The notes below the pieces were generated by a model. That model was given only the letters and a program-made list of their open reading frames with translations, ran no database searches and was not told where the DNA came from. This document shows positions 1,889-60,315 of a DNA stretch of 64,000 nt, piece after piece. Origin of the DNA: Betaproteobacteria bacterium HGW-Betaproteobacteria-16 (GTDB taxonomy: Bacteria; Pseudomonadota; Gammaproteobacteria; Burkholderiales; Burkholderiaceae_C). How positions within the stretch are numbered: the first letter of the stretch is position 1; every line of letters begins with the position of its first letter. The DNA lies in the NCBI GenBank assembly GCA_002840835.1, contig PHCQ01000015.1, positions 1 to 64,000 of the forward strand, written 5' to 3'. Made by a program: the position numbers and the translations under genes.

Positions 1889-3282
1889 CGCAGGCGCTCC
1901 AGGAACAACTGCCCCAGTTGCTGGGCGTTGTCGAAAGAAAATCCGCGCAGGCTCAGCTGGCTGCTCAGCCGCTCACGCGCATCGTCCACCTGGGTGGCTT
2001 GCACGGTGTAGTCGTAGAGACCCGGAAACTTGCGGTAGGCGCGCACACAGATGGCCGCACGGTAGGTGCGTTCGCCGCCCTGTATGTAGGCGTCCGTGCA
2101 GCGGTTGGGTGTCAACTCACCTGTCTGACCACTCCTCATGTACCCCATGCCGTTACCCAATGCCAGAAACTGGGGCGTGGCGAGCTGTTCGTTGCGCAGC
2201 AGGTTGTGTTCGATTTCCAGGGTGCCCGTGTAGAGGCTGTCGCGAACAAAGACGTCTTCCCGCAAGCTGCAGTTCAGCTGGTCGCGCGAATAGCGCAATC
2301 GCTCGCCATCACGTCCCTGGGCCCAGCACCGCGTGAGGGTGCCATGAAGGGTGGGCACCGAACGCCCCACGAGCGACTGAGCCGAGAAGCCTGCGGTCTG
2401 GTTTCGCTGCCCACCTGCAACGGGAGGCGCCTGCTGGTCCAGCATTTTCTGGGTCACGAACTGCTGATGCTCGAGCAGTTGCCGGGCGATCTGACTGCGC
2501 CATTCGACCTGGGGCGGTGCCGCCCAGGAGCGCTCCAGCAAGGATTTCGCGTAGTGCACCGGCACCAGAAAACTCAGCTGCTGGCCATCACGTCGGGTGG
2601 CCACGTTCACGCCCACGACGTGGCCGCGCTGGTCAATCGCTGGTCCACCGCTCATGCCCGAATTGATGGAACCTGAGAAAAGCATCTGCTCATACAAGCG
2701 GGTTTCGACCGAACCGTTGTAGATGCCTTCCGAAATCAGGAAGCCCAGTTCCAGCGGATTGCCCAGCGAAAACACCGGTGAACCCTGCACAAGGGACTGG
2801 TCGCTCAAGGTGAGCACCGGCCAGGCGGGTGCGGGCGATTGGACGGACGGCTTGGTGCGCAGAACCGCCAGATCGTGAATCACATCAATGGCCACCAACT
2901 CAGCTTCCACCACACGCTGATTGGTGCCCCGGAGCTCCATCCGGTAACGCTGGGGATGGATGGCCAGCGCAGAGATCACGTGGTAGTTGGTGACCACCCA
3001 GGCGCCTTGATCGCCGTCGTCGCGCACCAGAAAGCCGGAACCGAGCGACGACTGCTCATTGGCGCTGGAAAGCAGCACCCGCACCTGGACGATGCCGTCT
3101 TTTGTCCGCGAGAACAGGGCCTGCGCCGACGACGAGGGTTCTGCGGCGACGGGTGCGACCGCTACAGGGGTTGAGGCTGCCGTCTCTGCCTGTTCGGTGG
3201 ACGCATGTGCCAAGCTCAAAGAGACAGCGAGGCACAGGATAGCGGGGCGCAAGGCCTTCAAGACAAAGGAATGTGCGGGCAT
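1885..3282 (-). CDS. Secreted trypsin-like serine protease (S1C/DegP-like, no PDZ seen)
   Basis: The 465-residue protein opens with a signal peptide (MPAHSFVLKALRPAILCLAV, cleaved near AHA). An in-frame extension to 3330 exists, but the ATG at 3282 places the signal correctly. The protease domain shows the catalytic triad: His in TNYHV, Asp in VIHDLAVL and Ser in INSGMSGGPAID. No PDZ domain follows; the last ~200 residues are unfamiliar and contain several cysteines that could form disulfides in the periplasm. It is the first gene of a two-gene unit with the FHA membrane protein. The likely role is envelope proteolysis or stress surveillance, with the FHA partner as a possible regulator or anchor; that pairing is inference. 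Confidence 0.8.
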   Translation of the reverse strand: MPAHSFVLKALRPAILCLAVSLSLAHASTEQAETAASTPVAVAPVAAEPSSSAQALFSRTKDGIVQVRVLLSSANEQSSLGSGFLVRDDGDQGAWVVTNYHVISALAIHPQRYRMELRGTNQRVVEAELVAIDVIHDLAVLRTKPSVQSPAPAWPVLTLSDQSLVQGSPVFSLGNPLELGFLISEGIYNGSVETRLYEQMLFSGSINSGMSGGPAIDQRGHVVGVNVATRRDGQQLSFLVPVHYAKSLLERSWAAPPQVEWRSQIARQLLEHQQFVTQKMLDQQAPPVAGGQRNQTAGFSAQSLVGRSVPTLHGTLTRCWAQGRDGERLRYSRDQLNCSLREDVFVRDSLYTGTLEIEHNLLRNEQLATPQFLALGNGMGYMRSGQTGELTPNRCTDAYIQGGERTYRAAICVRAYRKFPGLYDYTVQATQVDDARERLSSQLSLRGFSFDNAQQLGQLFLERLR

Positions 3283-4039: not shown

Positions 4040-6736
4040 CTATCCCTCCAGCGTCTCCAGGAGTTCGGTTTCGATTTCGATCTGACGGCGGTTGACCTGC
4101 AGTTGCGGCCCGCTGATCAGGAACGTGTCTTCAACGCGCTCGCCCAAGGTGGTGATCTTGGCCAGTTGCACGCTGATGTCGTGGCGGGCCAGCACGCGCG
4201 AGATGCAGTAGAGCAGACCCGCCCGGTCGCTGGCCGAGACGCTCAGCAACCAGCGTTGAGCCTTCTCGTCTGGCCGAAGGTCGACACGCGGATTGACAGG
4301 GAAATTCTTGACCCGGCGCGAAAGGCGTCCTTTGGTGGGCGCTGGCAAAGGGCCACGCTCGTCGATGGTGCGCGCGAGGTTGTTTTCCACCATGGCAATC
4401 AGTTCGCGGTAGTGGTCCGACAGCGTCGGTGCCACCACCTGGAAGGTGTCGAGCGCGTGCCCATCCCGTGTGGTGTGCACGCGCGCATCCAGAATGCTGA
4501 AGTCGGAGGTGTCAAAGTATCCGCAGATGCGCGCGAACAAGTCGTGCTGGTCGGCCGCGTACACCAGGACCTGCAGACCTTCACCTGCCGGAGATAGCCG
4601 GGCGCGAACGATGGTTTTGCCATCTGCATGAGCAGGGGAGGAGCCGCCTGACTGTGAGATCTGGCGTGTCAGCACGCGGGTGTGCCATGCGATTTCGTCG
4701 GCCTGGTGGCGCATGAAATAGCTCACGTCCAGCGTGTCCCACAGCGCCTTGTGTGCCTGATGGGGCAGGGCGTGAAGTGCAAGGATTGAAAGCGCTTCGC
4801 GCTTGCGGGCCTCGATCATGGCGCCGGGATCGGGGGCGCGCCCGCCGAGTGCGCGCAAGGTGTAGCGATACAGGTCCTCCAGCAGCTTGCCTTTCCAGGC
4901 GTTCCATACCTTGGGGCTGGTGCCCCTGATGTCTGCCACGGTGAGCAGATAGAGTGCTGTGAGGTAGCGCTCGTTGCCAATCCGCTGGGCGAAAGCATTG
5001 ATCACTTCGGGGTCGCTGAGGTCTTCCTTCTGGGCCATCCGGCTCATGATCAGGTGCTCTGCCACCAGGAACTCGATCAGCTTGGTGTCTTCTCGCGCAA
5101 TACCGTGCTGGCGACAGAACGCGCGCACATCGCGCGCGCCCAGCTCGGAATGATCGCCACCCCGTCCTTTGGCGATGTCGTGAAACAGTGCCGCGATGTA
5201 CAGGATCCAGGGTTTGTCCCAGCCTGCTGCGAGTTGCGAGCAGAAGGGGTACTCATGCGAGTGCTCGGCGATGAAGAACCGGCGGACGTTGCGCAGCACC
5301 ATCAGGATGTGCTGGTCCACCGTGTAGACGTGAAACAGGTCGTGCTGCATCTGCCCGACGATGTGTCGGAATACCCAGAGGTAGCGGCCCAGCACCGAGG
5401 TCTGGTTCATGAGACGGATCGCGTGCGTGATCCCTTCGGGTTCCTGGAGGATGCGCAGGAACGTGGCGCGGTTCACTGGGTCGCTGCGAAAGCGCGCGTT
5501 CATGACCGGGCGGGCGTTGTAGAGGGCACGCAGCGTGCGCGCCGAAAGCCCCTTGATGCCCACGGTGGTCTGGTACAGCAGAAAGGTTTCCAGAATGGCG
5601 TGCGGCTGCTGCACGTACAGGTTGTCGTTGGCCACCTCCAGCATGCCGCTCTTGTCGAAAAAGCGCTCATTGAGCGGGCGCAACCGGTCCACACCGGCCT
5701 CGTCGCTGCTGAGACGTTCTTCGATGTTGAGCAAAAGAATCTGGTTGAGCTGGGTGACGGCTTTGGCTGCCCAGTAATAGCGCTTCATGAGCGCCTCACT
5801 GGCACGGCGGGTGCCCTTGGACGTGGGCGCTGCGTGGGCTTCTGGTGCCGCCCCGGTCAGCACCGCCGGCACGTGCGCCCTGAAGCCAAATGACTCGGCC
5901 ACCGAGGTCTGCAGGTCAAACACCAGGCGGTCCTCGCGCCGGTTGGCCAGCAAGTGCAGTCGTGCGCGAATCAGGCTGAGCATGGCCTCGTTGGCCTTGA
6001 TCTGCCGAGCTTCCAGCGGCGTGGCCAGCCCCTTTCGCGCCAGTTCGTCCCAGCTGCGCCCCAGCCCGGCCGCCTTTGCCACCCAGAGAATGATCTGCAG
6101 GTCGCGCAAGCCGCCCGGCGATTCCTTGCAGTTGGGCTCCAGTGAGTAGGGCGTGTTTTCGAATTTGTTGTGTCGCTGACGCATTTCGAGCTTCTTGGCC
6201 ACGAAAAACGCCTTAGGGTCCATGGCTTCGCCCAGCTTGCCCACCAGGCGGGTGAAATGCGACTTGCTGCCGCAAAGCAGCCGGCATTCGAGCAGCGATG
6301 TCTGCACGGTCACATCGCGCAGCGCCTCGTCCACACATTCTTCAACGGTGCGCACGCTGGAGCCGATCTCAAGGCCCAGATCCCAGCAGGCACCGATGAA
6401 ACCCTCCAGTCGGGCCTTCAGGACGCTGTCCGAGTCCGGCGCGCTGCCATCGGGCAGCAAGACCAGCACGTCGACGTCTGAATAGGGAAACAGTTCACCG
6501 CGCCCGTAGCCGCCGACAGCCACCAGGGACGTGCCCGGACCGAACCCCGACCGTGCCCACAGCTCGCGCAGGGTCTGGTCGGTCAGTTTCGAGAGTCGTT
6601 GCAAGGCGCTGCGCACGCCACGCGTCGAAGAGCCTTCGACACCCAGTTGGGCGAGCAGGGCCGCCTTTTCGTGGCGGTACTGCAGGCGCAACGAACCGAG
6701 GTCGCTCACACCGGGCGCGAGCACAGGCGCTGACAT
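4040..6736 (-). CDS. glnD: Bifunctional uridylyltransferase/uridylyl-removing enzyme
   Basis: The 898-residue protein has the GlnD domain order: N-terminal nucleotidyltransferase with [19 protein letters not shown] near residues 75-93; a central HD phosphohydrolase ([19 protein letters not shown]); and two C-terminal ACT domains (near [17 protein letters not shown] and [19 protein letters not shown]). GlnD modifies PII proteins in response to glutamine and so controls glutamine synthetase activity and nitrogen gene expression. It starts 4 nt after the map stop on the same strand, a common betaproteobacterial map-glnD arrangement. All key motifs look intact. Confidence 0.97.
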
Positions 6737-14870: not shown

Positions 14871-16532
14871 ATGGCATTGGTTGAAGTGAAAGTCCCGGAC
14901 ATCGGCGACTTTGATGAGGTGGCGGTGATTGAACTGCTGGTCAAGGTGGGTGACTCCGTCAAGGCGGAGCAGTCGCTGATCACGGTGGAGTCTGACAAGG
15001 CATCGATGGAGATCCCGTCGAGCACGGCTGGCGTGGTCAAGGAGCTCAAGGTTGCACTGGGCGACAAGGTGAAGGAAGGCTCCGTGGTGCTGGTGGTTGA
15101 GGCCGCTGGCGATGCCGCAGGCCCCGCGCCAGTTGCGGCCCCGGCCGCCGCAGCACCGGCGCCAGCCCCTGCAGCAGCGCCGGTGGCAGCTTCGGCACCG
15201 GCAACGGCACCGGCCGCCGCTGGGCCCGTTCAGGTTTTTGTACCCGACATCGGCGATTTCAAGGACGTGGCCGTCATCGAAGTGCTCGTGAAGCCTGGCG
15301 ATGCCATCAAGGTGGAACAGAGCCTGATCACGGTCGAATCCGACAAGGCCTCGATGGAGATTCCTTCTTCTGCTGCGGGCTTGCTCAAGGAGCTCAAGGT
15401 CAAGGTAGGCGACAAGGTCAACATCGGGGATTTGCTGGCGGTCCTGGAAGGCGCTGCAGGTGCCTCGGCGCCGGCGCCAGCGGCGCCTGCCGCCTCGCCG
15501 GCCGCTCCCGCAGCAGCGCCTGCAACCGTCGCCGCTCCTGCTGCTGCCACCGCATCCCCCGCTGCATCCCCGGCCCACAACCCCACCAGCACCCCCGCAC
15601 TGGGTCTGCCGCACGCCTCGCCCTCGGTGCGCAAGTTCGCGCGCGAACTCGGCGTGCCGCTGGAGGAAGTCCAGGGCAAAGGCCCCAAAGGCCGCATCAC
15701 GCTGGACGATGTGCAGGGTTTCACCAAATCGGTCATGGCTGGCGCCGTGCAGACACGGGCGCAGGCCGCCAAAGCGCCCGCTGGTGGCGGTGGCTCAGAG
15801 CTGGGTCTGATTCCCTGGCCGAAAGTCGACTTCACCAAGTTCGGCCCCATTGAGCGCAAGGAGATGGGCCGTATCAAGAAGATCAGCGGTGCCAACCTGT
15901 TGCGCAACGCGGTAATGATTCCGGCCGTCACCAACCATGACGACGCCGACATCACCGACCTCGAAGCTTTCCGTGTCTCCACCAACAAGGAAAACGAGAA
16001 GAGCGGTGTGAAGGTCACGATGCTGGCCTTCCTGATCAAGGCCTGTGTGGCCGCGCTCAAGAAATTCCCTGAGTTCAACAGCAGCCTGGACGGCGATGCG
16101 CTGATCTACAAGCAGTACTACCACATTGGTTTTGCTGCCGATACGCCGAACGGCTTGGTCGTTCCGGTCATCAAGGACGCGGACAAGAAGGGCGTACTGC
16201 AGATCAGCCAGGAAATGGGTGAGCTCGCCAAGAAAGCGCGCGATGGCAAGCTGGGTCCGGCCGACATGTCCGGTGCCTGCTTCACCATCTCCTCGCTGGG
16301 AGGCATTGGTGGCCGCTATTTCACCCCCATCATCAACGCGCCTGAAGTCGCCATTCTCGGCGTCTGCAAAAGCCAGATGGAGCCGGTATGGGACGGCAAG
16401 GCCTTCCAGCCGCGCCTGATGCTGCCACTGTCACTCACCTGGGACCACCGCGTGATCGACGGCGCCGCTGCGGCCCGCTTCAACGCGTACCTCGGCCAGA
16501 TCCTCGGCGACTTCCGCCGGGTGTTGCTGTAA
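14871..16532 (+). CDS. aceF: Dihydrolipoamide acetyltransferase (PDH E2), two lipoyl domains
   Basis: The ~553-residue E2 core of pyruvate dehydrogenase has two N-terminal lipoyl domains, each with the [12 protein letters not shown] lipoylation site (first Lys at residue 43), joined by long Ala/Pro-rich linkers. A peripheral subunit-binding domain (ASPSVRKFARELGV) and the C-terminal catalytic domain with DHRVIDG follow. The start at 14871 follows TTGGAGACAGAC; the ATG 12 bp upstream is less likely. It transfers acetyl groups to CoA. lpdA follows after 12 bp, so both are surely co-transcribed. Confidence 0.98.
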   Translation: MALVEVKVPDIGDFDEVAVIELLVKVGDSVKAEQSLITVESDKASMEIPSSTAGVVKELKVALGDKVKEGSVVLVVEAAGDAAGPAPVAAPAAAAPAPAPAAAPVAASAPATAPAAAGPVQVFVPDIGDFKDVAVIEVLVKPGDAIKVEQSLITVESDKASMEIPSSAAGLLKELKVKVGDKVNIGDLLAVLEGAAGASAPAPAAPAASPAAPAAAPATVAAPAAATASPAASPAHNPTSTPALGLPHASPSVRKFARELGVPLEEVQGKGPKGRITLDDVQGFTKSVMAGAVQTRAQAAKAPAGGGGSELGLIPWPKVDFTKFGPIERKEMGRIKKISGANLLRNAVMIPAVTNHDDADITDLEAFRVSTNKENEKSGVKVTMLAFLIKACVAALKKFPEFNSSLDGDALIYKQYYHIGFAADTPNGLVVPVIKDADKKGVLQISQEMGELAKKARDGKLGPADMSGACFTISSLGGIGGRYFTPIINAPEVAILGVCKSQMEPVWDGKAFQPRLMLPLSLTWDHRVIDGAAAARFNAYLGQILGDFRRVLL

Positions 16533-55955: not shown

Positions 55956-56693
55956 ATGAGTCAAAAAATTGCATACGTCACGGGCGGCATGGGTGGCATC
56001 GGTACCGCCATCTGCCAGCGCCTGCACAAGGAGGGCTTCAAGGTCATTGCCGGGTGTGGCCCCACGAGGGATTTCACCAAGTGGCTGGACGAGCAGAAAG
56101 CCTTGGGCTTCACCTTCTACGCATCGGTGGGCAATGTGGGTGACTGGGATTCCACCGTGGAGGCCTTCACCAAGACCAAGGCCGAGCACGGCACCATCGA
56201 CGTGCTGGTGAACAACGCCGGCATCACCAAGGACCGCATGTTCCTGAAGATGACCCGCGAAGACTGGTCGGCCGTGATCGAAACCAACCTGAACTCCATG
56301 TTCAACGTCACCAAGCAGGTGGTGCCCGACATGGTGGAAAAAGGCTGGGGCCGCATCGTCAACATCAGCTCGGTCAACGGTGAAAAAGGCCAGGCTGGCC
56401 AGACCAACTACTCGGCCGCCAAGGCAGGCATGCATGGTTTCTCGATGGCGCTGGCGCAGGAACTCGCCACCAAAGGCGTGACGGTCAACACCGTGAGCCC
56501 GGGCTACATTGGCACCGACATGGTCAACGCCATCCGTCCTGACGTGCTGGAAAAAATCGTCGCCACCGTGCCCGTGAAGCGCCTGGGCAAGCCCAGCGAA
56601 ATCGCGTCCATCATTGCCTGGCTGGCGAGCGAAGAGGGCGGTTACGCCACCGGCGCCGACTTCTCGGTCAACGGCGGTCTGCACATGGGCTGA
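55956..56693 (+). CDS. phaB: NADPH-dependent acetoacetyl-CoA reductase
   Basis: The 245-residue short-chain dehydrogenase has VTGGMGGIGTAICQRLHKEG as its cofactor loop, NNAGITKD, catalytic Ser in NISSVNGEKG and YSAAKAGMHG with the Tyr-x3-Lys pair. It makes (R)-3-hydroxybutyryl-CoA for PhaC. AGAGGAGCAA precedes the ATG. It is the last gene of the PHB cluster; a repeat and a strong terminator follow. Confidence 0.97.
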   Translation: MSQKIAYVTGGMGGIGTAICQRLHKEGFKVIAGCGPTRDFTKWLDEQKALGFTFYASVGNVGDWDSTVEAFTKTKAEHGTIDVLVNNAGITKDRMFLKMTREDWSAVIETNLNSMFNVTKQVVPDMVEKGWGRIVNISSVNGEKGQAGQTNYSAAKAGMHGFSMALAQELATKGVTVNTVSPGYIGTDMVNAIRPDVLEKIVATVPVKRLGKPSEIASIIAWLASEEGGYATGADFSVNGGLHMG

Positions 56694-56697
56694 GGCT

Positions 56698-56785
56698 GCC
56701 CACCCCCGCGCCGCGCCTGCGGCGCGTCACCCCCTCAAGGGGACAACATCTGCAGCCCGGCAAAGCCGGCTCCGCGATGTTCTGG
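56698..56785 (+). repeat. Three-hairpin intergenic repeat, copy 4
   Basis: It starts 4 bp after the phaB stop. Hairpin A is CGCGCC/GGCGCG, hairpin B is CCCCTCAAGGGG, and hairpin C has core CCGGCAAAGCCGG (56757-56769) enclosed by AACATC (56745-56750) and GATGTT (56776-56781). The arms differ from copies 2 and 3 but still pair. Confidence 0.75.
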
Positions 56786-56810
56786 ACCAAGGCACGTGGC
56801 CTCTCACAAA

Positions 56811-56833
56811 CCCGCTTCGGCGGGTATTTTTTT
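56811..56833 (+). terminator. Rho-independent terminator after phaB
   Basis: CCCGC-TTCG-GCGGG (56811-56824) has a UUCG tetraloop and is followed by TATTTTTTT. It ends the PHB transcript just before the original dusA start. Confidence 0.88.
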
Positions 56834-56853
56834 GGGCTGGGATAATTGGCCCT

Positions 56854-56943
56854 ATGTCATCTGAACCCGCTTTGTCCCCTTGGCGCTTGTCCGTCGCTCC
56901 CATGATGGATCGTTGCGAAAAATCAACGTTATGCGGGTTTTGA
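56854..56943 (+). pseudogene. Displaced 5' end of dusA
   Basis: A 29-codon frame from the ATG at 56854 reads as the DusA N-terminus (PWRLSVAPMMD), then diverges after that motif and hits a stop at 56941. The same motif occurs in the intact dusA 2.4 kb downstream. This is the original start of dusA, cut off by an insertion; the promoter region upstream (56834-56853) is presumably the original one. Confidence 0.88.
56878..56909 (+). repeat. Left attachment-site repeat (attL-like) in dusA codons for PWRLSVAPMMD
   Basis: The 32-bp sequence beginning CCTTGGCGC and ending CCCATGATGGA matches 59258-59289 at 29 of 32 positions; the mismatches are at repeat positions 10, 12 and 21. It encodes the conserved DusA N-terminal motif. 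Confidence 0.82.
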
Positions 56944-56995
56944 GTGGATTGTGTGCTTTTCATGTGCGAACAATAGTCGGCCAGAGGGGAGCGCA

Positions 56996-57532
56996 ATGAA
57001 TGTCGAGCATGTCGGGGCAATGTGGGGTTTCCTGGGGGCCATAGTCGGGGCAGCAGCCAGCATCACCGCGACTCTGCTATCCCTTTCGCACTCAAGGCGC
57101 CTTGAGACTGAAAGGGATCAACGAAGTAGAGCTCAGCGCGATCAAGATGCTCAGCATCAGACGCTGCTTCAGATACAGGATGAAATTCTGAAGCTTTCGA
57201 ATCTCAGTTCCAATACTCTCGTTCGCGATACCATCGAATACGATATTTCCAGGCGTTGGAGGTGGAAGCCCACCGCTGAACTACAGAGGCTGGACCAGCT
57301 CGACATTGACCGAACCGAATCATTGCGCAAGAGTGCCGTCCTCATTGAGCGAATACTCGACGACTCGCTGCGGGCGAAGATCTCTAAATACAAGTCGATC
57401 TTGGTGCGGATGAATAACGCTGACTCAATAGAAGCTGCAGCAGTACTGAGCGCCCGCATGGCAGAGGAACTTGAATCCCTGATGGGAGAACTCGGCGAGC
57501 GCATACGCTCCAGCTCGCTTGTTTCTCCATAG
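56996..57532 (+). CDS. Element cargo 1: membrane-anchored helical protein, unknown function
   Basis: The 178-residue protein has one N-terminal transmembrane helix (MWGFLGAIVGAAASITATLL), followed by a long, highly charged helical region with heptad-like spacing (RRLETERDQRSRAQRDQDAQ). An excellent GAGGGGAGCG site precedes the ATG at 56996. No family is recognised. Codon usage is much less GC-biased than the chromosome, as for the other cargo genes. It is the first of three co-oriented cargo genes. The single-anchor plus coiled-coil build is common in phage-defence effectors and sensors, but that is only suggestive. Confidence 0.75.
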   Translation: MNVEHVGAMWGFLGAIVGAAASITATLLSLSHSRRLETERDQRSRAQRDQDAQHQTLLQIQDEILKLSNLSSNTLVRDTIEYDISRRWRWKPTAELQRLDQLDIDRTESLRKSAVLIERILDDSLRAKISKYKSILVRMNNADSIEAAAVLSARMAEELESLMGELGERIRSSSLVSP

Positions 57533-57661
57533 ACAATTCAAGTGTCACTAGTTTTCCACCAAGCTACAGCATCCCCATGGGGAGGCCCGCGGTCTCTGAA
57601 TGGATAGGTGTCAAAAATCTGTCGAACTCCATGTTATCACCCTACATAGCAGGCCTTTCCT

Positions 57662-58150
57662 ATGAGTGATCTTCACAAAGATGCACCACCCGAACTCCAG
57701 CAGTCTCGCGAAAAGTATCACGACGAGAGATTCCACCAGCTCAATGGATTGCTGACGTCATCATCTGGGGCTGCTTGGTCCTATCTGCTTGCTGTGAACG
57801 GCGGTGCTGCAGCCGGAATTCTTGCCTTTATCGGGGCAAAGGCTTCAGTCGCCGTTCAAATGTGGCCTTACGCGGTTTTGTCTCTATTTGTCTTGGGGTT
57901 GCTGTGTGTCGGGTTCGCACACGCTGCGATTGTCCATAAAGTCCAGGGCCTACTTCAAAACTGGAGTTCCACCATGGAGCGCTACTGGAAGAACCAGGTG
58001 GGTTGGGACTACTTGATGGAACGAGACCAAGATTTGGTTTATCGCTGGCGAAAGGTGCCATGGATTTTGGGCTGGCTTTCTCTCTTGCTGTTCATCGCCG
58101 GGATCATAGTGACAGCATGGAACTTCCATCGTATGGCCTCGCCGAACTAA
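57662..58150 (+). CDS. Element cargo 2: three-helix membrane protein, unknown function
   Basis: The 162-residue protein has a charged N-terminus (~35 residues), then three predicted helices: WSYLLAVNGGAAAGILAFIG, WPYAVLSLFVLGLLCVGFAH and WILGWLSLLLFIAGIIVTAW. Helices 2 and 3 are separated by a charged loop rich in aromatic residues (MERYWKNQVGWDYLMERDQD). The ATG at 57662 has only a weak ribosome site. A perfect palindrome TCCCCATGGGGA (57572-57583) lies in the 129-bp gap upstream. No family is recognised with confidence; similar NGGAAAGILAF-type membrane proteins occur on bacterial accessory regions. Confidence 0.75.
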   Translation: MSDLHKDAPPELQQSREKYHDERFHQLNGLLTSSSGAAWSYLLAVNGGAAAGILAFIGAKASVAVQMWPYAVLSLFVLGLLCVGFAHAAIVHKVQGLLQNWSSTMERYWKNQVGWDYLMERDQDLVYRWRKVPWILGWLSLLLFIAGIIVTAWNFHRMASPN

Positions 58151-58264
58151 ACGTCAGAAGTGTGAGGGGATCAAAGCGCGCCCGGCGTAGCCTCTGGCGG
58201 TGTCGGTGCTTGCCACCCGACTGGCTGCGGCTTCCAGGAGGAACAGCCCAGCTCAGCGAGACCA

Positions 58265-58417
58265 TCAGCCTTCGACCTTCTCCATATAAAACGGCAACCA
58301 CGCCCAGGTCGAGCTTTTCCCGTGCCGGTAGACCTTGGGTCGGTACTTGTGACGCACGATGCGCCGGCCGTCGAGCTGACGCCGATCTGTTGGCAATCGA
58401 GCAAATTTGCGCAACAT
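58265..58417 (-). CDS. Possible 50-residue small protein, opposite strand in the element
   Basis: A 50-codon frame (MLRKFARLPTDRRQLDG... ending YMEKVEG) lies in the 288-bp gap between cargo genes 2 and 3. It is basic and unusually rich in Trp/Tyr (KSSTWAWLPFYMEKVEG). This gap is clearly GC-richer than the cargo genes around it, so it may be the remnant of a different gene, perhaps the C-terminus of a lost protein. No strong ribosome site is seen. It would be antisense to the leader of cargo gene 3. Confidence 0.35.
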   Translation of the reverse strand: MLRKFARLPTDRRQLDGRRIVRHKYRPKVYRHGKSSTWAWLPFYMEKVEG

Positions 58418-58438
58418 CTGCTACACGAAGGAGCCTTC

Positions 58439-59017
58439 ATGAATAAGCCTGAGAATTCCGGCAAAGGTGGCGTCCTCGTCCACTTCAAACAAAATTGGCC
58501 GTGGGCCTTTGCGGCGTCCGTCGCTATCGCAGCGGCATTCGTTGTCGGCTTCTATGTAAGCCAATTCGGAGAGTTCGGGCTATCTGATCAGACCCAGAAC
58601 TGGGGAGCCTTTGGCGACTATGTTGGCGGCGTTCTCAACCCCTTGGTCGCATTGGCTGCATTGCTTCTGCTTGCCCACTCAATCAGTATTCAACGCAGAG
58701 AGCTACATGACACGGGGGTAGCGCTCAGGGAACAAGCGTCGCACTCAAGGGACTTGGTCCACCTAACCGCGATGATCGCGGTGCTGGAACGTCACGAGCG
58801 GCACTTAGAGGGGCTCAAAAGCGAACTGAAAGAAATGCCCGTTCCAGGCAAGGTCGAGGAGACGATGGAAGTGATCATGAGGAGAGCTGGTTTGAAAAGT
58901 GCCATTCAGCAAGTCTCCACTCAACACCATGAGTTGCGAGAGAACATAGGCAAATTACTTTACAAGCTGCAATCCGAAAGTGAAAAAGAGGGAGGCAATC
59001 CAACGGAAGCTCTGTAA
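58439..59017 (+). CDS. Element cargo 3: putAbiC-like membrane protein (abortive infection?)
   Basis: The 192-residue protein has two N-terminal helices (PWAFAASVAIAAAFVVGFYV and LVALAALLLLAHSISIQ) joined by the motif WGAFGDYVGGVLNPLVAL, then a charged helical, probably coiled-coil tail (RRELHDTGVALREQ and on). The G-FGD-GGVLNP signature between two helices is the N-terminal hallmark, as I remember it, of putative phage abortive-infection proteins (putAbiC group). This protein is shorter and lacks their long C-terminal part. GAAGGAG precedes the ATG at 58439; a longer frame to 58322 lacks a start of similar quality. Confidence 0.75.
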   Translation: MNKPENSGKGGVLVHFKQNWPWAFAASVAIAAAFVVGFYVSQFGEFGLSDQTQNWGAFGDYVGGVLNPLVALAALLLLAHSISIQRRELHDTGVALREQASHSRDLVHLTAMIAVLERHERHLEGLKSELKEMPVPGKVEETMEVIMRRAGLKSAIQQVSTQHHELRENIGKLLYKLQSESEKEGGNPTEAL

Positions 59018-59114
59018 GCAGCCCCAGCTTTCGCGTGCAGGCGTCGAAGATCACAGAAGCGAAAAGAAAACCCTGCGCTGGGCCGGGCTAAGGTCTGGAA
59101 AATGTCACCAGTCG

Positions 59115-59188
59115 TGTGCTCTCAATGTGTGTCTAGTCGTACACCAGTGCTACACCGCTCAATCCCTTCTGTGCACTCTGTGTGCACT
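59115..59188. repeat. 11-bp-phased short repeats near the right end of the element
   Basis: TGTGC starts at 59115, TGTGT at 59126, and TGTGCACT at 59170 and 59181; the intervals are 11, 44 and 11 bp. On the same strand, TACACC occurs at 59140 and 59151, again 11 bp apart. At the left end TGTGC occurs at 56952 and 56963, also 11 bp apart. Such one-turn phasing is typical of integrase or excisionase arm sites. The rest of the 207-bp gap before dusA shows no gene. Confidence 0.5.
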
Positions 59189-59224
59189 AATCTCTTCACA
59201 TGAGCCGAAAAAGTAAAAACACAA

Positions 59225-60268
59225 GTGGAAAATACTCAGTCAAATCAACAGCTTAATCCTTGGCGCCTTTCCGTCGCGCCCATGATGGACTGGACCGACC
59301 GGCATTGCCGTTATTTCCATCGCCTGCTGACCAGGAAGACGCTGCTCTACACCGAGATGGTGACGACGGGCGCGTTGATGCATGGCAGTGTGCAGCGGCA
59401 CCTTCGCTTCAACAAAGAAGAGCATCCGGTGGCTCTGCAGCTTGGCGGCAGTGAGCCGGCGGACCTGGCTGCAGCGGCGCGGCTGGGGGAGCAGTGGGGC
59501 TACGACGAGATCAATCTGAACTGCGGTTGCCCCAGTGACCGGGTGCAGCGCGGTGCGTTCGGTGCCTGCCTGATGGCGGAGCCCAGGCTGGTGGCCGATG
59601 GCGTCAAGGCCATGGTGGATGCCGTGACTGTGCCGGTCACAGTAAAGCACCGCATCGGCATCGACAGGACCGAGAGCTACGAATTCGTTCGTGACTTCGT
59701 GGGCACGGTCAGCGAAGCGGGGTGTTCGGTCTTCATGGTGCACGCGCGCAATGCCTGGTTGCAGGGCCTGTCGCCGAAGGAAAACCGGGAGGTGCCACCG
59801 CTGCGCTACGAACTGGCGTACCAGCTCAAACGCGATTTTCCTCACCTCACCATCGGTGTGAATGGCGGTATCACCACCAATGAACAGATCGACATGCACC
59901 TGGCGCAGGTTGATGGCGTGATGGTGGGGCGCGAGGCCTACCATCACCCGTGGCTCATGACCTCCTGGGACGAGCGCTTCTTTGGCGCTTCGCCTTCCTT
60001 GGTGACCCGCGAAGGGGTAGAGGAACAGATGGTGGCCTACATGGAGCGTGCACACGCGGAAGACGGCTGCCCCTGGTATGCCATTGCACGCCACATGCTG
60101 GGCCTTCGGCACGGCCTGCGAGGCGCACGTCTGTGGCGCCAGGTGTGGAGTGACCATCGGCTCAAGCCCTTGCCGCCCAGAGAGGTGTGGGCGATGGCGC
60201 AGGCTCACATCGGGTCCGAGGTTGCGGAAGGCATCGACCCTGCGCTTCAACCGCTGGCAGCGCTCTGA
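59225..60268 (+). CDS. dusA: tRNA-dihydrouridine synthase A, re-started at a GTG supplied by the element
   Basis: The 347-residue flavoprotein reduces uridines in the tRNA D-loop. It has SVAPMMDWTDRHCRYFHRLL, the catalytic-Cys segment EINLNCGCPSDRVQRGAFGA, VKHRIGIDRTESYEF and the PHLTIGVNGGI barrel strand. Its first ~11 codons, up to NPWRLS, come from the inserted element: the start is a GTG at 59225 (VENTQSNQQLN), whereas the original start lies 2.4 kb upstream. The gene is intact beyond the junction, so the insertion probably preserved function but moved it to new 5' control sequences. Confidence 0.95.
   Translation: MENTQSNQQLNPWRLSVAPMMDWTDRHCRYFHRLLTRKTLLYTEMVTTGALMHGSVQRHLRFNKEEHPVALQLGGSEPADLAAAARLGEQWGYDEINLNCGCPSDRVQRGAFGACLMAEPRLVADGVKAMVDAVTVPVTVKHRIGIDRTESYEFVRDFVGTVSEAGCSVFMVHARNAWLQGLSPKENREVPPLRYELAYQLKRDFPHLTIGVNGGITTNEQIDMHLAQVDGVMVGREAYHHPWLMTSWDERFFGASPSLVTREGVEEQMVAYMERAHAEDGCPWYAIARHMLGLRHGLRGARLWRQVWSDHRLKPLPPREVWAMAQAHIGSEVAEGIDPALQPLAAL
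59258..59289 (+). repeat. Right attachment-site repeat (attR-like) inside intact dusA
   Basis: This 32-bp direct repeat of 56878-56909 (29/32 identical) spans codons for PWRLSVAPMMD in the functional dusA. It marks the right junction of the inserted element. Confidence 0.82.
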
Positions 60269-60315
60269 TTGCTCCCTTGTCTCCTCTGGTCAGGGGTGGC
60301 TTTGCTCTGCTGGTG

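Follow-up and report, generated by a model that had tools for sequence, protein, structure and literature searches.

A probable dusA-specific island remnant lacking its integrase in a betaproteobacterial genome

Results and Discussion

An integrase-less unit in the 5' end of dusA

The 64-kb stretch of DNA analysed here (the window; positions 1 to 64,000 of contig PHCQ01000015.1 of Betaproteobacteria bacterium HGW-Betaproteobacteria-16) carries, in the 5' end of its dusA gene, a unit of some 2.4 kb without an integrase gene. We consider it highly probable that this unit is a decayed dusA island, bearing the ends of a satellite-like lineage, that has lost its integrase while keeping its attachment (att) ends, attL and attR, and three membrane-protein genes. 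The insertion is precise with respect to empty sites in related genomes, its ends are shared with integrase-bearing islands at the same site, the very start of an integrase gene persists beside attR, and no dusA-type integrase was found in the assembly. Features are collected in Table 1; genomes are designated by G numbers, retrieved stretches by L numbers and contigs by C numbers.

Table 1. Features of the dusA-borne unit and its borders, in window coordinates
Feature	Position	Strand	Evidence
Dead stub of 29 codons in which the native dusA 5' end runs into island sequence	56854..56943	+	MSSEPALSPWRLSVAPMMD, the dusA start of G030 and G058
attL core repeat	56878..56909	+	29/32 identical to 59258-59289
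attL inner arm: TCGTTGCGAAAAATCAACG, one GTGTGC (56951), one imperfect TGTGCG (56963)	56910..56975	+	Aligns with attL of G016, G027, G039, G331, G022 and G183
Cargo 1: 178 aa, one N-terminal hydrophobic segment, charged remainder	56996..57532	+	One homologue outside its own genome in 349 family genomes (G174, 29%)
Cargo 2: 162 aa, three hydrophobic segments	57662..58150	+	Homologues in G319 (41%) and G183 (weak) among 349 family genomes
Possible gene remnant, open frame ending RIVRHKYRPKVYRHGKSSTWAWLPFYMEKVEG, stop	58265..58420	-	Frame reading only
Cargo 3: 192 aa, two hydrophobic segments	58439..59017	+	phrog_8999, E 2e-15; membrane module like the start of putAbiC proteins
Integrase remnant: mutated start (CTG) and next four codons, then divergence	59097..59111	-	Continuous alignment with the integrase start of G016 and G027
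attR inner arm, former integrase promoter side, now dusA 5' leader and start	59112..59257	+	75/84 invariant island columns kept (count includes the integrase remnant)
Intact dusA, island-supplied N-terminus MENTQSNQQLN	59225..60268	+	PF01207, E 5e-85; same NQQL leader in G016 and G027 islands
attR core repeat	59258..59289	+	29/32 with the left repeat; matches the G030 empty-site core

The unit is bounded by two 32-bp direct repeats, 91% identical and 2380 bp apart. Pairs of 32-mers agreeing at 29 or more positions occur at only four same-strand offsets in the window, the dusA repeat pair being one of them. The left repeat lies within the stub, which reads from ATG to stop as MSSEPALSPWRLSVAPMMDRCEKSTLCGF and is found 3' of phaB and of a terminator-like site at 56810-56825; the right repeat lies within the intact gene. 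The segment of about 2.35 kb between the repeats (56910-59257) has a G+C content of 0.531, as against 0.636 for the whole window, which makes it the minimum for segments of that length: none of 1234 same-size segments sampled at 50-bp steps reached 0.531 or less. It carries three open reading frames (ORFs), with one, three and two hydrophobic segments respectively, two overlapping calls in the first ORF being taken as a single segment. An earlier, sequence-only reading of this locus had claimed the repeat pair, a dead stub after the phaB terminator, an intact second dusA copy, lowered G+C content and three small membrane-protein genes, and on recomputation each was found as described. A separate direct repeat is seen in the window at 14952 and again 1674 bp on, with 43 32-mers agreeing at 29 or more of 32 positions at the latter offset.

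Empty sites in relatives

Positions 56000-60300 of the window were searched against 67 congeneric genomes (its own included), with four candidates scored per genome. All 67 gave some match among the matches listed, although in at least four of them (G002, G036, G042 and G056) the best, at E 8e-12 to 8e-26, was too weak for phaB or dusA. Altogether 58 stretches were retrieved from 54 genomes, and phaB and dusA lay on one stretch in 48 of these (L033-L080). In 14 of the 48, phaB is followed directly by dusA. The closest empty sites are those of G030 and G058, where the match on the phaB side and that on the dusA side have 33 bases in common, which are the repeat, and where dusA begins with the same residues as the window stub; the insertion was therefore precise. 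Uninterrupted dusA genes had been expected in relatives, and here they are; the opposite outcome, with every relative carrying both stub and cargo, was not encountered. In the alignment the right-hand core of the window equals that of G030, all three differences falling in the left-hand core, a distribution consistent with a crossover near the left end of the repeat.

The same comparison bears on whether the locus might be an artefact of assembly or binning that joined foreign DNA to it. The assembly is indeed in 232 contigs, with an estimated contamination of 6.26%, but the element lies inside a 101-kb contig, both of its host flanks match G030 at 91% and its ends obey the att rule, so that such an artefact seems extremely improbable.

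Full islands at the same site share the ends of the unit

A second copy of the dusA core is present in four of the 48 stretches, those of G016, G039, G027 and G022. The copy in G022 was recognised through BLAST and an alignment of ends, the count by core motif missing its mutated stub as well as the dusA genes of G024, G031 and G053, which BLAST had found; nor did the core-motif search give copies in G326 and G151, discussed below. In G055 a stub-like 30-nt match lies on one contig, and dusA lies on another beside a more distant integrase (34-36% identity).

The islands of G016, G027 and G039 each have a tyrosine integrase gene (PF00589) whose start adjoins attR and whose direction is away from dusA, the G016 and G039 proteins being 83% and 69% identical, respectively, to that of G027. 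The corresponding core-to-core spacings are 9168 bp (G016), 10016 bp (G027) and 9037 bp (G039). On both sides, the inner end of the window unit aligns with that of these islands. On the left they share TCGTTGCGAAAA.TCAACG and GTGTGC-type sites, the second of which is imperfect in the window; on the right there are further GTGTGC/GTGCAC sites and a leader, AAATCAACA.CTTA, that forms the new N-terminus of dusA. Among attR columns invariant in the three integrase-bearing islands 75 of 84 are kept in the window, versus agreement with G016 at 53 of 78 other columns, a comparison confounded by the selection of the columns as conserved, which shows no excess decay and is no proof of ongoing use.

The sequences thus support a dusA-specific insertion of island-lineage DNA, because relatives have empty sites, the cargo genes (see below) are not core genes and the ends are those of a dusA-integrase island lineage.

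These ends also speak to an origin by local duplication of the dusA 5' end around unrelated DNA, no integrase being involved. Local duplications of this kind occur, and in a further genome, G183, the repeat runs through the native start over some 68 bp. The window unit, by contrast, has island-type inner ends, a remnant of an integrase start and empty counterparts in relatives, and for it a duplication appears very unlikely.

A dusA gene with an island-supplied start

The only in-frame start ahead of the core in the intact dusA is the GTG at 59225, the last stop codon being at 59201, and this GTG is inside element-side sequence. The gene would now start in the former integrase-promoter region and depend on the attR side. 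A promoter scan of 56600-59350 found no sigma-70-like promoter (0, compared to 1.4 in shuffled sequences). The cargo genes lie downstream of the old dusA promoter and in the same direction, and could be driven by it. If dusA does depend on the attR side, the native gene would be restored by precise excision only; imprecise loss of the remnant would damage a dusA gene that apparently relies on its island-supplied start.

Probable loss of the integrase by deletion

Followed inwards from attR, the window tracks the islands through the promoter side of the integrase gene to its start codon, where ATG has become CTG, and on to TTTTCC, after which it diverges. Loss of the integrase by deletion is the most likely reading of this alignment, because the promoter side and about five codons are kept before the divergence. 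The sequence-only reading had the unit free of any integrase, which is true of the gene itself but overlooks this short remnant. Elsewhere in the host genome no dusA-type integrase was found at E <= 1e-30, in an assembly whose 232 contigs might be missing a gene; the best matches were 32% identical (E 5.7e-12), covering part of the protein, and 31% identical (E 6.5e-7). The search for an integrase elsewhere in the host genome that the earlier reading had called for therefore came back empty.

A parallel case is offered by G022, with 2189 bp between its cores, a putAbiC gene and a shortened attR arm. There 20 integrase codons, 80% identical (E 1e-4 to 2e-4), remain where the gene would be expected and in the expected orientation. 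In the G022 arm (L035) DNA has seemingly been lost between two TGCACACGA direct repeats that are seen in the G016 arm; this loss was likely a slippage deletion. A third integrase-less unit, of 2001 bp and with at least two ORFs, occurs in another genus, in G183 (L144, minus strand; stub near 5154, dusA at 3201). It has no integrase match at E <= 1e-3, the best at E <= 10 being 0.6, and on its attR side the island arm sites are replaced by a duplicate of the native dusA start, some 68 bp long when the core is counted. How this unit arose is less clear than for the window unit.

The likely parent island

The gene content of the related full islands was assessed by scanning eight proteins in G016, five in G039, three in G027, seven in G151 and three in G326 (integrases counted where scanned), with no separate search for tail genes. 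For G016, seven non-integrase proteins were scanned with Pfam and six with PHROGs. They yielded matches to a terminase small subunit, an HNH endonuclease, a major head protein (E 3.5e-7) and O-like replication initiators; the best PHROG for its helix-turn-helix protein was a terminase small subunit and the next an excisionase/regulator, and the remaining scanned G016 proteins had no Pfam or PHROG matches. In the G039 island one protein matches a major head and protease (E 6e-124), and a CHC2 primase zinc finger is also present. In that of G027 a primase/helicase match was obtained; another of its proteins gave no PHROG match and shares 40% identity over 242 residues with the head-like protein of G016. 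In G151 protease, portal, HNH, TerS, TerL and two connector matches were obtained, all at E < 1e-20; no major capsid protein was identified among the seven proteins scanned.

Capsid, packaging and replication genes are thus spread over the related full islands, which measure 9-11 kb, and the parent of the window unit accordingly looks like a capsid-encoding phage satellite. The earlier suggestion of a satellite is to this extent upheld for the relatives, though not for the unit in its present state, which keeps no satellite gene.

Cargo genes

The draw of 349 family genomes holds five congeners only, the source genome of the window among them. Within it cargo 1, 2 and 3 are present in 2, 3 and 16 genomes respectively, again counting their own, which leaves fifteen others for cargo 3. 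A DNA search with the cargo stretch across 50 congeneric genomes (six candidates scored in each) found the unit in its own genome only. Rare in both draws, the cargo genes are therefore not core genes, as they would have had to be for the insertion proposed earlier to be doubted on that account. No dusA-type integrase match lies near the cargo homologues of G174 and G319. In G015 part of cargo 2 is matched at 72% over 118 bp (L164, C1:3191508-3191625), away from dusA.

For cargo 1 there was no Pfam match above the cut-off, no PADLOC match and no match in plasmids. A 20-nt inverted repeat (85%) without spacing lies inside this gene at 57079-57118, where the region matches itself. Cargo 2 has no match in plasmid or phage records, nor in a scan of genome contigs, and the open frame between cargo 2 and cargo 3 has no Pfam or plasmid match. 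No convincing PADLOC match to a known defence model was found for any of the three, a weak Vsr match to cargo 2 standing at E 0.025; nor did any match a recombinase or relaxase above the Pfam cut-off, with one sub-threshold TrbK match at E 0.029. Relatives of the three were not seen in viral contigs, in a search that reached close relatives only.

Cargo 3 has no match in phages and two weak ones in Vibrio plasmids, annotated as putative phage abortive infection protein. The putAbiC family (PF16872) is matched by its homologue in G281 (E 2e-13) and by the G022 island gene (E 7e-25), and cargo 3 is itself 39% identical to the latter protein over 51 residues (E 5e-5). In G278 the cargo 3 homologue, which matches no PADLOC model itself, is flanked by a type I restriction specificity gene on one side and PtuA/PtuB genes (Septu) on the other. 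The surrounding region (L143, 1916-11651) is a dense defence island comprising type I restriction-modification, PtuA/PtuB and other PADLOC candidates. The cargo may act against phages, which we put forward as a lead and not as a result.

Decay or mobilisation in trans

According to the reading that we favour, a dusA-specific, capsid-encoding, satellite-like island would have recombined site-specifically with the dusA 5' end, at the conserved codons for PWRLSVAPMMD, and so inserted there. The insertion would have displaced the native dusA start, which is now the stub, and the attR end would have supplied a new start and leader. An internal deletion would then have removed all but about five codons of the integrase, along with any replication and packaging genes, so as to leave the two att ends and three membrane-protein genes. 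The order of these events is our reconstruction. The remnant is probably immobile in its own strain, but its arm-type sites are kept and an incoming dusA integrase might use them.

Several observations weigh against this scenario. The integrase remnant is just 15 bp long, including a mutated start, and the case for it rests on the continuous alignment of the attR arm. The next 147 bp inwards show no convincing integrase homology: in local alignments of this short stretch, shuffled sequences scored as well in 131 of 200 cases for G016 and 134 of 200 for G039, and G027 gave a short, chance-like match (7 of 200). An intermediate combining these three cargo genes with an integrase was not found. 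Relative to the recognised genes in the islands of G016, G027 and G039, the cargo genes are on the other strand, and they could have entered by a later event. Finally, since no satellite gene is retained, the argument for a satellite parent draws solely on relatives whose ends are similar.

The sequence-only reading had offered two possibilities, a decayed island and a satellite mobilised in trans. We prefer the former, because at the place of the integrase gene in the full islands the window has a truncated start of it; the latter is a possibility only. It would make the unit a non-autonomous element which dusA islands, on arrival, still move with their integrases, and hence a parasite of satellite-like islands. 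The arm sites are, it is true, largely kept at both attL and attR, and the integrase-less units of the window, G022 and G183 are alike in size (2380, 2189 and 2001 bp between cores) though drawn from two genera. Yet these three share no cargo set and differ in their end states, G022 having lost part of its attR arm and G183 having a native 5' copy in its place, and such differences suggest independent decay. With no dusA integrase found in its own genome and the unit itself in none of 49 other congeners (six candidates scored per genome), we regard continuing mobilisation as unlikely. A similarly low probability attaches to the generalisation that integrase-less dusA mini-islands of about 2-2.4 kb are recurring second-order parasites, reduced to their att ends plus between one and three defence-like membrane genes, and riding on the integrase, and perhaps the particles, of capsid-encoding dusA satellites.

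How common such units are

Three integrase-less insertions were seen (window, G022 and G183) and seven integrase-bearing ones (G016, G027, G039, G055, G326, G151 and G331); as the attL patterns are strict and the genome draws partial, these and the following counts are not prevalences. Within the genus, two of the six dusA insertions found are without an integrase (window and G022, versus G016, G027, G039 and G055), and an integrase at E <= 1e-30 is present in 4 of the 67 congeneric genomes. An attL pattern matched 2 of the 349 family genomes and a broader pattern five: the window, G183, G326, G151 and G331. In the last three an integrase 68-72% identical to that of G027 lies next to dusA, with stub-to-dusA distances of about 10-11 kb (10110 bp in G331). 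With two mismatches allowed, the broader pattern matched 8 of the 67 congeneric genomes, four at dusA stubs (window, G016, G027 and G039) and four, each with two mismatches, elsewhere; G022 was missed. An exact attL pattern was not found in a scan of genome contigs. Relatives of the integrase were found at 18 loci in IMG/VR, 13 of them at 58-73% identity and on contigs of 8-16 kb except for one of 40 kb. G039 also has, on a 3-kb contig (C266, L120), a second integrase match that is more distant (38%) and contains an internal TAG.

Surveys based on the integrase are blind to remnants of this sort. A search for stubs and att ends would show how frequently islands decay to cargo kept by the host, and could expose defence genes that arrived by way of decayed islands.

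Comparison with known systems

In an account of 94 dusA-specific islands (Farrugia et al. 2015, PMC4482086), these range from 4758 bp to 184.8 kb, have the integrase as their only common gene and are flanked by 21-bp semiconserved sites, the dusA 5' end being supplied by the island in the strains examined there. The window unit resembles them in its dusA 5' target, its semiconserved flanking repeats (here of 32 bp, with empty sites in relatives) and its island-supplied dusA start. It differs in that all 94 have an integrase and the smallest measures 4758 bp, whereas the window unit spans 2.38 kb and holds only the start remnant of a dusA-type integrase gene. An integrase-less dusA element is named in none of the titles and abstract openings among the open-licence dusA papers listed.

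Cis-mobilizable elements (CIMEs) are decayed elements that keep attL and attR and have lost their recombination genes, the classical CIMEs with cargo in Streptococcus salivarius measuring 1.2-13 kb (PMC5704250, PMC7563491). Like a CIME, the window unit keeps both att ends and has no recombination or transfer genes. By definition, however, CIMEs stem from integrative and conjugative or integrative and mobilizable elements, whereas the relatives of the window unit look like phage satellites; no tandem arrangement was seen at the window dusA locus.

Capsid-forming phage-inducible chromosomal islands have a mean size of 14 kb and form capsids of their own (PMC10803314). The related full dusA islands, at 9-11 kb, are like them in having, between them, integrase, replication, protease, capsid, portal, HNH and terminase genes, a likeness of genes only; the window unit keeps none of these, and only parts of the set were seen in each related island. 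As for the putAbiC family, cargo 3 resembles its N-terminal membrane module, and the G022 island has a PF16872 gene, but cargo 3 itself has no PF16872 match at E <= 1.

Set against these published descriptions, so far as they extend, the window unit fits the known dusA islands except in its integrase and its size. It is real, site-specific and largely explained, and its interest is modest, lying mainly in the fact that such units recur and escape integrase-based surveys.

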